From positions 1-36,730 of IMG/VR virus record IMGVR_UViG_3300025508_000054: a DNA stretch of 36,730 bases; one strand, 5' to 3'. The notes below the pieces were generated by a model, which did no database searches, was not told the origin of the DNA, and was given only the letters and a program-made list of their open reading frames with translations. The position numbers and the translations under genes are program-made. Below are positions 11,065-14,007 of this stretch, piece by piece. This DNA comes from a virus. Every line of letters starts with the position of its first letter. The first letter of the stretch is position 1.

Positions 11065-11646
11065 TTACTTGTTCCTTTTTATTGTTGTCTTATTCTCTGA
11101 GAATACCCCAAAGATTTCCGTTGGCATTTCTTTACCCGCCTCAATACGCTCACGGACTAGCGCTTTCAAAGTCATGGGTTCAACCTTCATCTTTTGTGTC
11201 GGTTGAAACCCTTGACCTTTCGCAAGTTCAGCATAAGATGCTGCCTTGTTATCCTCGTTACGACCAAATGATACCAAGATCTCGTTCTTAATAATATCAC
11301 CTAATCCATTGTTACGAAGCCAGTTAAACGCCGCTTCTTTATTTGCTTCTGTAATAGTAGCACGATACGACGTTGAAACTTTAAGATGTGATCCATCTTG
11401 TAGTTTTAATTCTGCTAAACCCATCTCGGACATCATGGTTGGTATAACTTCACCTGATATACGTAGGTATTCTTTTTTTAAATCTTTAATGTTATTTTCA
11501 CTTGCCTCTATTCTTTTGTGCAACCCCTCTAACATTTGTACTTGATCTGCAAGAGACTGAATGTTTTCAGTTTTACTCATTGCATCTTGTTGATCTGCTT
11601 CAAAGTTTATTTCATTTTTAAACTTTATTGTTTGTTTAATCGACAT
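11065..11646 (-). CDS. Conserved phage replication-module protein with coiled coil (193 aa)
   Basis: The first 30 residues are polar (MSIKQTIKFKNEINFEADQQ). Residues 27-70 form a predicted coiled coil (LADQVQMLEGLHKRIEASEN). A domain with HLKVSTSYRATITEANKEAA, AFNWLRNNGLGDIIKNE and ILVSFGRNED follows. This arrangement recurs in podoviruses of marine alphaproteobacteria, in a family I know only as an uncharacterised replication-region protein. NFEAD near the N-terminus is also present in the next gene, perhaps a shared interaction motif. It starts within the upstream gene (11-base overlap). The function is unknown. Confidence 0.7.
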   Translation of the reverse strand: MSIKQTIKFKNEINFEADQQDAMSKTENIQSLADQVQMLEGLHKRIEASENNIKDLKKEYLRISGEVIPTMMSEMGLAELKLQDGSHLKVSTSYRATITEANKEAAFNWLRNNGLGDIIKNEILVSFGRNEDNKAASYAELAKGQGFQPTQKMKVEPMTLKALVRERIEAGKEMPTEIFGVFSENKTTIKRNK

Positions 11647-12004
11647 CTATTTCTCCTTTCTCGTATAGATTAATCTCGATAGGATAATATTTTCTTTCTT
11701 GTTTATCCCACTTCAATACATTGTATTTACCGTTTGTAATATCAGATACAATAGAACATGCAACACCAATGATTGCAGGATCACCTGTCAATAATAAATA
11801 ATCTTCTGGTTTATAATTTCTTAAACCTTTTCTTAATTTAAAAATTAATGGACCAGGAGAAAAAATCATTTGAGAAAATTCCGGTAATAAAAAATTAAAG
11901 TCATTGGTTGTAGAATAAGCAGCTGCACCCATAATATTTATTTTAGGAGTACCTGCTTGGCTACCCGGTATTTCTTGTATTACATAAACTTTTCTTTCTA
12001 ACAT
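11636..12004 (-). CDS. First gene of the replication operon, unknown function (122 aa)
   Basis: The product begins MLERKVYVIQEIPGSQAGTP, with strand-rich segments, an aromatic/Pro-rich middle (FNFLLPEFSQMIFSPGPL) and a Lys-rich end (WDKQERKYYPIEI). The family is not recognised, though similar proteins open marine phage replication operons. I use ATG 12004; a TTG two codons earlier (12010) is in frame. The promoter -10 at 12018-12013 predicts transcription starting near 12006, two bases before this ATG, so the message is probably leaderless. No Shine-Dalgarno is visible, which is consistent with that. Confidence 0.7.
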   Translation of the reverse strand: MLERKVYVIQEIPGSQAGTPKINIMGAAAYSTTNDFNFLLPEFSQMIFSPGPLIFKLRKGLRNYKPEDYLLLTGDPAIIGVACSIVSDITNGKYNVLKWDKQERKYYPIEINLYEKGEIDVD

Positions 12005-12040
12005 TGACAAACAATATAAACATGTTTATATGGATGTCAA
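12004..12040. promoter_or_regulatory. Divergent promoter pair around a perfect 18-bp palindrome
   Basis: Plus strand: TTGACA (12004-12009), 17-base spacer, TATATG (12027-12032), reading into the SNF2 gene at 12062 with an AGAAAGAAG ribosome site. Minus strand: TTGACA (12040-12035), 16-base spacer, TATATT (12018-12013), reading into the gene starting at 12004. Between the two -35 boxes lies the perfect palindrome ATATAAACATGTTTATAT (12014-12031), which contains both -10 elements. A dimeric repressor on it would shut off both operons together. Polymerases on the two promoters would also exclude each other. Confidence 0.75.
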
Positions 12041-12061
12041 CTAGAAAGAAGAAAAAAAATT

Positions 12062-13492
12062 ATGAATTATAAATTTAAAACCAAACCATATGCACATCAA
12101 TTAACTGCATTAGAAAAATCTTGGAACAAAGAAAACTATGCTTATTTTATGGAAATGGGTACAGGCAAAACAAAAGTATTAATAGACAATGTTGCAATGT
12201 TATATGACAAAGGTAAGATTGATGGTGTGTTAATTGTTGCACCAAAAGGTGTTGTTAAAACTTGGTACGAACAAGAACTACCTACACACTTACCAAACCA
12301 CATAGAAAATGTGTCTGTGTTATGGCAACCTAATATTACAAAAACACAAAGAGAAAAATTAGAATCTTTATTTGAAATAGAATCTGCTTTTCATATTTTA
12401 ATTATGAATGTAGAATCTTTGTCTACAGATAAAGGTGTAAAATTTGCAAACAAATTTATTAATTCACACAAAGCTTTAATGGCTATTGATGAGTCTACTA
12501 CAATTAAAACACCTACGGCTAAAAGAACTAAAAATATTATTAAAATTGGTTTAAATGCTAAGTATAAAAGAATCATGACGGGTTCTCCTATTACAAAGAA
12601 CCCATTAGATTTATATACGCAGTGTGAGTTCCTTGATCCATGGTTGTTAGACTTTGCTTCTTATTACGCATTCAGAAATAGATATGCAGAAATGAAAACA
12701 ATGCATATACGTGGACGATCTATCCAGGTAGTAGATAAGTTTCAAAACTTAGGAGAGTTATCAGACATAGTAAAAGAATTTTCTTACAGAGTATTAAAAG
12801 AAGATTGTTTAGACTTACCTCCTAAAGTATTTATTAAACGTCATGTAACTTTAACTCCTGATCAAAAAAAAGTTTACGAACAAATGAAAGAACAAGCTAT
12901 CGCACATTTAAATGGTAAAGTTACTACTACTATGACTGTGTTAACACAATTAATGAGACTACATCAAATTACTTGTGGGTACGTAGCAGCTGATGATGGT
13001 ACTACACAACAAGTTGAGAGTAATAGACTAAATGAATTGATGTCTATTTTAGAAGATACAGACGGTAAAGTTATTATATGGGCTAACTATCAATTAAGTG
13101 TTGGTGAAATTATACAGAAGATAATTAAAGTTTATGGTCCAGATTCTTATGTTCATTACTATGGTTTAACACCACAAGAAGATAGACAAGACTTTATTCG
13201 TAAGTTTCAAAATGATCCTAAATGTAGATTTATTATAGGTACACCTCAAACAGGTGGTTACGGTATTACACTTACCGAAGCTAATACTGTTATTTATTAT
13301 TCTAATGGTTATGATCTAGAAAAAAGGCTGCAATCAGAAGACAGAGCACATAGAATAGGACAAAAGAAAACCGTAACTTATATTGATTTAATTGCCGAGG
13401 ATACAATTGATGAAAAAATAGTAGAAGCTTTACGTAAAAAAATAAATATAGCCTCAGAAGTAATGGGAGAGGAGTTAAGAGAATGGATATAA
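12062..13492 (+). CDS. SNF2-family DNA helicase/translocase (476 aa)
   Basis: SF2 motifs are clear: a Q-motif-like YAHQ (10-13), MGTGKT (Walker A, 32-37), D143-E-S-T146 (motif II, a variant of DExH), MTGSP (172-176, motif III), a GTPQTGGYGI stretch (motif V region) and QSEDRAHRIGQ near 424-434 (motif VI), which is typical of SNF2 proteins. Phage SNF2 proteins translocate on double-stranded DNA and may assist replication, recombination or removal of bound host proteins. The gene is on the strand opposite to the rest of the replication set and has its own promoter. Its last bases overlap the start of the 2OG oxygenase. Confidence 0.9.
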   Translation: MNYKFKTKPYAHQLTALEKSWNKENYAYFMEMGTGKTKVLIDNVAMLYDKGKIDGVLIVAPKGVVKTWYEQELPTHLPNHIENVSVLWQPNITKTQREKLESLFEIESAFHILIMNVESLSTDKGVKFANKFINSHKALMAIDESTTIKTPTAKRTKNIIKIGLNAKYKRIMTGSPITKNPLDLYTQCEFLDPWLLDFASYYAFRNRYAEMKTMHIRGRSIQVVDKFQNLGELSDIVKEFSYRVLKEDCLDLPPKVFIKRHVTLTPDQKKVYEQMKEQAIAHLNGKVTTTMTVLTQLMRLHQITCGYVAADDGTTQQVESNRLNELMSILEDTDGKVIIWANYQLSVGEIIQKIIKVYGPDSYVHYYGLTPQEDRQDFIRKFQNDPKCRFIIGTPQTGGYGITLTEANTVIYYSNGYDLEKRLQSEDRAHRIGQKKTVTYIDLIAEDTIDEKIVEALRKKINIASEVMGEELREWI

Positions 13493-14007
13493 ATACAGCT
13501 TTTAAAGTAGATTTTCTACAAATTAAATCTATTGATTTTAAAAAAAAGAAAAAATTAATTAATAAAATACTAGAGGACTATCCTGAAAAACGTTTTAAAA
13601 ATTTTTCTAGTAATAGAAACAACGCTAACTTTAGTTTAAAATTTTTTAATATATTTGCAGAAGAATTAAATAATATATGTAAAAATATGGAGGGGGTAAT
13701 GCAGTCTGGAGATGTTTGGTCTGTAAGTTATAAAAAAGGAGATTATCATGTTCCACACAACCACGGTTCTAAAGGCTATTGTGGAATTTTGTATTTAAAT
13801 ATGCAAAAAAATTCACCGGTTACTTCGTACATGCAACCTTGGAATAATCATAATGATGATAGTATAATATATGAACCTAAAGTTGAAGAAGGAGATATAG
13901 TAATTGTGCCACAATTTATAACACACTTTACAAAACCTAATAATCTTAAATTTAAAAAAAGAATTATATCTTTTGATTTTAAACTAGATCTACCGCTTTA
14001 CCGATAA
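13483..14007 (+). CDS. 2OG-Fe(II) oxygenase (2OG-FeII_Oxy_5-like, 174 aa)
   Basis: The core reads HVPHNHGSKGYCGILYLN, with H92-N-H94 as proximal metal ligands in the HxH form seen in this subfamily. GDIVIVPQFITHF supplies the distal H148, and R160 in KRIISFDF is the likely 2OG ligand. Residues 1-75 are a Lys/Asn-rich variable N-terminus. The start ATG lies inside the end of the SNF2 gene (10-base overlap), so the two are co-translated. Its 3' end overlaps the convergent endolysin gene by 29 bases. Base composition is more AT-rich than the SNF2 gene, suggesting separate acquisition. The substrate is unknown. Confidence 0.8.
   Translation: MDINTAFKVDFLQIKSIDFKKKKKLINKILEDYPEKRFKNFSSNRNNANFSLKFFNIFAEELNNICKNMEGVMQSGDVWSVSYKKGDYHVPHNHGSKGYCGILYLNMQKNSPVTSYMQPWNNHNDDSIIYEPKVEEGDIVIVPQFITHFTKPNNLKFKKRIISFDFKLDLPLYR

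Follow-up and report, generated by a model that had tools for sequence, protein, structure and literature searches.

A putative compact bidirectional promoter, made of two interlocked divergent promoters, at an operon junction in relatives of SAR11 phage HTVC027P

In E. coli, BirA binds the bioA/bioBFCD operator-promoter, a single inverted-repeat element lying across two divergent promoters. Bidirectional promoters are widespread, and selection on two-way transcription itself is hard to show. According to the accessible part of a study by Warman, Grainger and colleagues (PMC12825309), a pseudo-symmetric core promoter gives rise to two divergent transcripts, with the polymerase bound in one of two orientations; the bidirectional promoters of E. 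coli use a shared -10 element, their transcription starts are commonly 18, 10 or 23 bp apart, and the polymerases compete when the promoters are strong. In pLS20, as the accessible part of PMC4207663 describes it, the -10 of each of the promoters Pr and Pc falls on the -35 of the other, and the polymerase cannot occupy Pr and Pc together, an arrangement described as a switch. An orthologous junction that keeps a two-way promoter in many phage contigs through a change of geometry makes the question of selection directly testable.

We analyzed a candidate for such a junction in a stretch of viral DNA of 36,730 nucleotides (IMG/VR record IMGVR_UViG_3300025508_000054), called the window below. It comes from an uncultured marine phage related to HTVC027P, a phage of SAR11, and has a helicase 61% identical to that of HTVC027P and 64% identical to that of 023Pt_psg01. 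We put at about 0.8 the probability that the site at 12004-12040 would function as a compact bidirectional promoter of the host sigma-70 type, consisting of two interlocked divergent promoters and needing no dedicated regulator. The features of the site and of its surroundings are as follows.

11636..12004, minus strand: Pam3_gp32-like gene (PF23992, E=3e-28), first gene of the leftward replication operon
11992..11999, minus strand: outer arm with the sequence AGAAAGAA, near the start of the transcribed and coding parts of the left gene
12002..12004, minus strand: initiation codon of the left gene, 8 nt beyond the -10 hexamer; a nearly leaderless mRNA is predicted
12004..12009, plus strand: -35 of the rightward promoter, TTGACA, identical in 27/27 unique gap-25 and 20/20 unique gap-21 cores of relatives
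12013..12018, minus strand: -10 of the leftward promoter, TATATT, spacer 16; start predicted at about 12006
12014..12031, no strand: palindrome, consisting mostly of the two TATAT boxes in opposite orientation and a centre that varies
12027..12032, plus strand: -10 of the rightward promoter, TATATG, spacer 17; start predicted at about 12039
12035..12040, minus strand: -35 of the leftward promoter, TTGACA, replaced by TTGACT in many of the relatives
12043..12050, plus strand: second outer arm with the sequence AGAAAGAA, in the leader predicted for the helicase mRNA
12062..13492, plus strand: SNF2-type DNA helicase (PF00176, E=2.6e-25), first gene of the rightward operon
13483..14007, plus strand: 2OG-Fe(II) oxygenase (PF13759, E=1.4e-7), second gene of the rightward operon

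The preliminary description had reported two facing TTGACA boxes 25 bases apart around a perfect 18-bp palindrome. Reading of the sequence confirmed this: the boxes lie at 12004-12009 (plus strand) and 12040-12035 (minus strand), and the enclosed ATATAAACATGTTTATAT at 12014-12031 is an exact palindrome that has its sole copy in the window here, even when up to 3 mismatches are allowed. Both -10 elements had also been placed within the palindrome, which is correct for the first five bases of each hexamer, while the final base of each falls outside. A standard promoter scan returned the minus promoter only (11/12 matches); the plus promoter was missed because its -10 ends in G. The two -10s do not overlap: 8 bp lie between them, each falls in the spacer of the opposite promoter, and each -35 is located at the predicted start region of the opposite promoter. 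With start sites placed 7 nt beyond the -10, the predicted starts are 33 bp apart in the window, and about 37-38 bp apart in those relatives whose boxes are separated by 21 bases. Given predicted starts at 12039 and 12006, the transcripts would diverge and each polymerase would cover the opposite core.

To the left of the site, the matches to Pam3_gp32, Pam3 gp33 (DUF7307) and Pam3_Gp34 are followed, further on, by a UvrD-like helicase and DNA polymerase A. The profile search identified no regulator gene adjoining the site, the neighbours being the Pam3_gp32-like gene and the SNF2 helicase. We observed that in the near clade defined below the ATG of the left gene is situated 7-11 nt beyond the minus -10 (unique rows), though the start-picking script often chose an in-frame TTG upstream of this ATG. 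This distance gives a predicted leader of about 1-5 nt, and translation of the left gene may thus be leaderless.

Within the window, the arrangement is statistically unremarkable, and the case for it rests on conservation in relatives. Perfect palindromes of 18 bp are not rare in DNA this AT-rich: two were observed compared to 0.33 expected, and at least one appeared in 27% of 120 Markov-1 simulations. With both TATAT boxes given, four further pairs are needed for the palindrome (p about 0.005). The pattern TTGAC-N18..32-GTCAA was observed once, with 0.62 occurrences expected.

The other perfect 18-bp palindrome, TATCCTATATATAGGATA at 2061-2078, covers the -10 of a TTGACA-N17-TATATA promoter (minus strand, from 2096). 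Three copies of ATCCTA are present at this palindrome, within 2062-2087, and the ATG of the ORF at 1825-2061 comes 6 nt after the -10 of the same promoter. As a candidate operator, this palindrome looks better suited than the site at 12004-12040.

The near set comprised 80 IMG/VR loci carrying this helicase at 83% identity or more, which together with the window made 81 sequences; five of them had an upstream part that was too short and were excluded, leaving 76 usable sequences. The pair TTGAC...GTCAA was found in 75 of the 76, with a gap of 25 bases in 48, a gap of 21 bases in 27, and no other value. In the 76th locus (L019), a gap-21 site, read by eye, is displaced upstream by extra sequence in front of the helicase. 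This insertion, upstream of position 9196 of L019, separates the helicase start from an intact gap-21 two-way promoter. The presence of the pair in all 76 usable sequences (one by eye) argues for the compact divergent promoter that had been proposed between the replication and the SNF2/oxygenase operons.

The conservation of the boxes was judged from the 75 loci derived by tblastn, themselves found by TTGAC and GTCAA. Since these words located the cores, the invariance of the -35 cores, including that of GTCAA (plus strand) in 27/27 unique gap-25 cores, is partly by construction. The real result is that 75 of 76 loci have both -35 cores at just two spacings. In the unique gap-25 cores, the four boxes carry 1.90-2.00 bits per position, compared to 0.93 for the palindrome centre and 0.89-1.10 for the remaining spacer; in the helicase codons, the mean was 1.19 bits for third positions and 1.77 bits for first and second positions. 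Thus, the palindrome centre is more variable than third codon positions, and the four boxes are near invariant.

We scanned IMG/VR with a strict gap-25 pattern of 21 fixed bases. It matched at least 118 sites, and among the matches listed 118 of 118 adjoin the gp32-like gene and/or this helicase. For the gap-21 pattern, 37 of 119 sites in the fetched loci were away from the junction, mostly without a second -10. A TTGACA...GATATTTATGRTATATGTCAA element recurs away from this junction in loci such as L360, L358 and L386. Across 84,980 genomes of bacteria and archaea, the strict pattern matched 10 stretches, of which 8 were (AT)n repeats in Spiroplasma. The other two, in the betaproteobacterial records L568 (6470-6506) and L572 (3155-3191), fall at divergent junctions of an ArsR-family gene and a metallo-beta-lactamase-fold gene.

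Among 160 further, more distant loci, 4 were too short and the others fell into two clades of 78 loci each. In the 023Pt_psg01 clade (about 62-65% helicase identity), the pair was present in 74 of 78 loci, with a gap of 25 in 71, of 24 in two and of 26 in one. None of the 40 unique 37-base cores of this clade had a palindromic centre, and a minus-strand TATA at spacing 16-18 was missing in 13 of 42 unique cores, so that leftward transcription in this clade may depend on a weak promoter or on one of another kind. Of the 78 loci in the HTVC027P clade, 73 carry TTGACT-N16/17-TATATA-N16/17-AGTAAA, in which the minus -35 reads TTTACT, apparently two opposed promoters with one common TATATA as the -10. 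The AGTAAA is not simply start-codon context, because its distance to TATATA is constant while its distance to the helicase ATG varies. In HTVC023P (44% helicase identity), there was no TTGACA pair at the junction. As read from these sequences, the same gene junction would carry at least three two-way promoter geometries: interlocked with gap 25, interlocked with gap 21, and with a shared -10.

Two promoters and a dimer operator lead to different predictions: in the first case each -35/-10 distance should be kept, in the second case the distance between the arms. We tabulated the spacers in 129 unique cores (79 gap-25 and 50 gap-21), taken from the 75 loci and from oriented pattern hits, with TATTT and TACAT also allowed as beginnings of a -10. 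Before the unique-core counts, we removed the sites that could not be oriented, so that 110 occurrences of the gap-25 pattern and 68 of the gap-21 pattern were kept, compared to 118 and 82 at the junction. The enlarged set is not usable for box conservation, since the TATAT boxes are themselves part of the strict gap-25 pattern. The plus spacer was 17 in 128 of 129 cores (79/79 gap-25, 49/50 gap-21). The minus spacer was 16 throughout the 79 gap-25 cores; among the 50 gap-21 cores, it was 17 or 16 in 49. Therefore, the distance between the arms shifts by 4 bp between the gap classes while the spacing within each promoter stays at 16-17. On the helicase tree, which retains seven rows with a stop or a frame change in the translated stretch, the gap class switched at least 8 times, with at least 5 switches forced by well-supported branches; these switches may reflect repeated conversion or, alternatively, recombination at the junction. 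Two independent promoters would not need the gap to be as restricted as it is in the near clade, where it is 25 or 21.

The pattern at the centre was similarly examined for symmetry. The frequencies of symmetric pairs, compared to the column-shuffled expectation, were 0.76 vs 0.62, 0.33 vs 0.25, 0.35 vs 0.26, and 0.16 vs 0.20; that is, the symmetric centre positions are barely above expectation, with three of the four pairs slightly higher. The word ATCC/GGAT occurred in 19 of 79 gap-25 centres (3.1 expected, column-shuffled) and showed a weak enrichment in gap-21 centres (25 of 50 compared to 17.6 expected). ATCC is missing from the window's own promoter centre, and the window has about as many copies of ATCCTA as expected (22 compared to 20.3).

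These data bear on an alternative reading, an operator, where a dimeric regulator encoded by the phage or by the host would bind the palindrome and shut or switch both promoters together. The preliminary description had suggested that one dimeric regulator could control both operons, and the perfect dyad across both -10s of the window speaks for such a reading. However, the palindrome as the functional element is not supported. Its exact form is present in only 6 of the 27 unique gap-25 cores; all 20 unique gap-21 cores lack it, and so do the 40 cores of the 62-65% clade. The centre is variable and shows little covariation, the arm distance jumps by 4 bp with the promoter spacing unchanged, no regulator gene is next to the site, and the promoter of the regulator that had been proposed is without the palindrome. 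Conservation of the palindrome among relatives, suggested earlier as a check, is thus mostly absent, and this largely refutes the operator reading. The best natural argument in its favor comes from the L568 and L572 junctions, where the same geometry, TTGACA-N4-ATATA-N8-TATAT-N4-GTCAA, has an ArsR-family gene next to it, a setting in which one would expect a dimeric repressor. There, a gene of a dimeric regulator family is on one side, and both the genes and the hosts are unrelated to the phage site. On balance, we regard the operator as improbable.

The candidate regulator suggested for the site was the protein encoded at 437-610, described as resembling the ribbon-helix-helix (RHH) type. It is short (57 aa) and strongly conserved (mean column identity of 91% among 18 sequences), and its AlphaFold2 model has an N-terminal extended stretch followed by two helices, an order compatible with RHH in a model of low confidence (mean pLDDT 69.2). 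On the other hand, we found no RHH family match in Pfam, PHROGs or NCBIfam; the single Pfam match was Ribosomal_L50, under its cut-off. A Foldseek search of the PDB with this model (mean pLDDT 69) gave 0 matches. HTVC027P has a homolog, 47% identical over 55 aa, yet it is without the palindrome, which is also not in the conserved promoter of the 437-610 gene. With no RHH profile, no fold match and no common operator, the proposal is unsupported, and we consider it very unlikely that this protein is a specific regulator of the site.

In relatives, the promoter of the 437-610 gene, at 608-690, shows strong conservation in the form TTGACAATCCTATA...TATATA, which extends to the ATCC after the -35. 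As for an operator common to this promoter and to the site, the longest shared words had the expected length in five genomes (p from 0.06 to 0.86), and this candidate was rejected.

Also very unlikely is a replication origin or a recombination site between the operons, with the promoter-like boxes being incidental. The site does divide the replication genes from the rest, and the records of published relatives open exactly there; the cumulative GC skew, however, tracks the strand of the genes and reverses only where that strand switches, and conservation is focused on the -35 and -10 boxes at promoter spacing. An RNA hairpin or a terminator was rejected, since transcription in both directions is predicted to begin downstream of the palindrome.

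The base at -7 varies (A/G/T/C) across the cores of relatives, and the accessible part of PMC8407463 reports that more than 60% of the sigma-70 promoters in the alphaproteobacteria studied are without T at -7. Pelagibacter and SAR11 have 0 mentions in that part. No RNA polymerase is annotated in HTVC027P, the early genes of which are of unknown function according to the available part of PMC12753301; the RNA-seq data for this phage in the same part resolve timing at the level of genes, with no start sites given at the junction. Four sigma-70 promoters were predicted in another pelagiphage (PMC10504331, available part). Among the literature records listed by our searches, we found no report of such a site in pelagiphages, and neither the main text of PMC9599517 nor PMC12753301 uses the word "promoter", as far as their accessible parts go. 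The site provides well-defined candidate promoters for phages with no evident RNA polymerase of their own, in a SAR11-type host group with promoter rules that are little studied.

Returning to the bidirectional promoter as the preferred reading, the host (SAR11-type) RNA polymerase would bind in either orientation but never in both at once. One 37-bp element would in this way start the leftward replication operon (at about 12006) and the rightward SNF2-helicase/oxygenase operon (at about 12039) in competition. The inverted repeat would follow mainly from the symmetric placing of two near-identical promoters, and the perfect central palindrome would be a lineage-specific extra. The architecture and its conservation are seen in the sequences themselves, and from these we infer promoter activity, start sites and RNA polymerase competition. 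Selection seems to act on compact divergent transcription in mutually exclusive orientations and not on an operator. We propose more tentatively, as something possible and short of probable, a regulator-free two-way promoter at which the polymerase itself chooses the operon, with selection maintaining mutual exclusion as such in an abundant SAR11-type phage group. Selection on mutual exclusion is proposed because the junction appears to have been rebuilt with at least three geometries.

Like the bioA/bioBFCD element, the site has a single inverted repeat over two divergent promoters. Unlike that element, which is defined by an operator and a dimeric repressor, it has an unconserved palindrome, and we found no repressor for it. 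The likeness to pLS20 Pr/Pc (PMC4207663, accessible part) is that the -35 and -10 boxes overlap in such a way that binding would be exclusive, as far as sequence alone can tell. Differently from pLS20, where one promoter is weak and both drives and needs a regulator gene, both promoters of the window are near consensus and no regulator adjoins them. With the bidirectional promoters in the accessible part of PMC12825309 the site would share opposed core promoters with mutually exclusive polymerase footprints, judged here by sequence only; it differs in having separate -10s, predicted starts 33 bp apart, and TTGACA as both -35s. The version in the HTVC027P clade fits the shared -10 form in that part of PMC12825309, with a predicted start separation of about 19. 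By its predicted elements, the site is a new geometric variant of the known bidirectional and overlapping divergent promoters, conserved yet rebuilt between clades.
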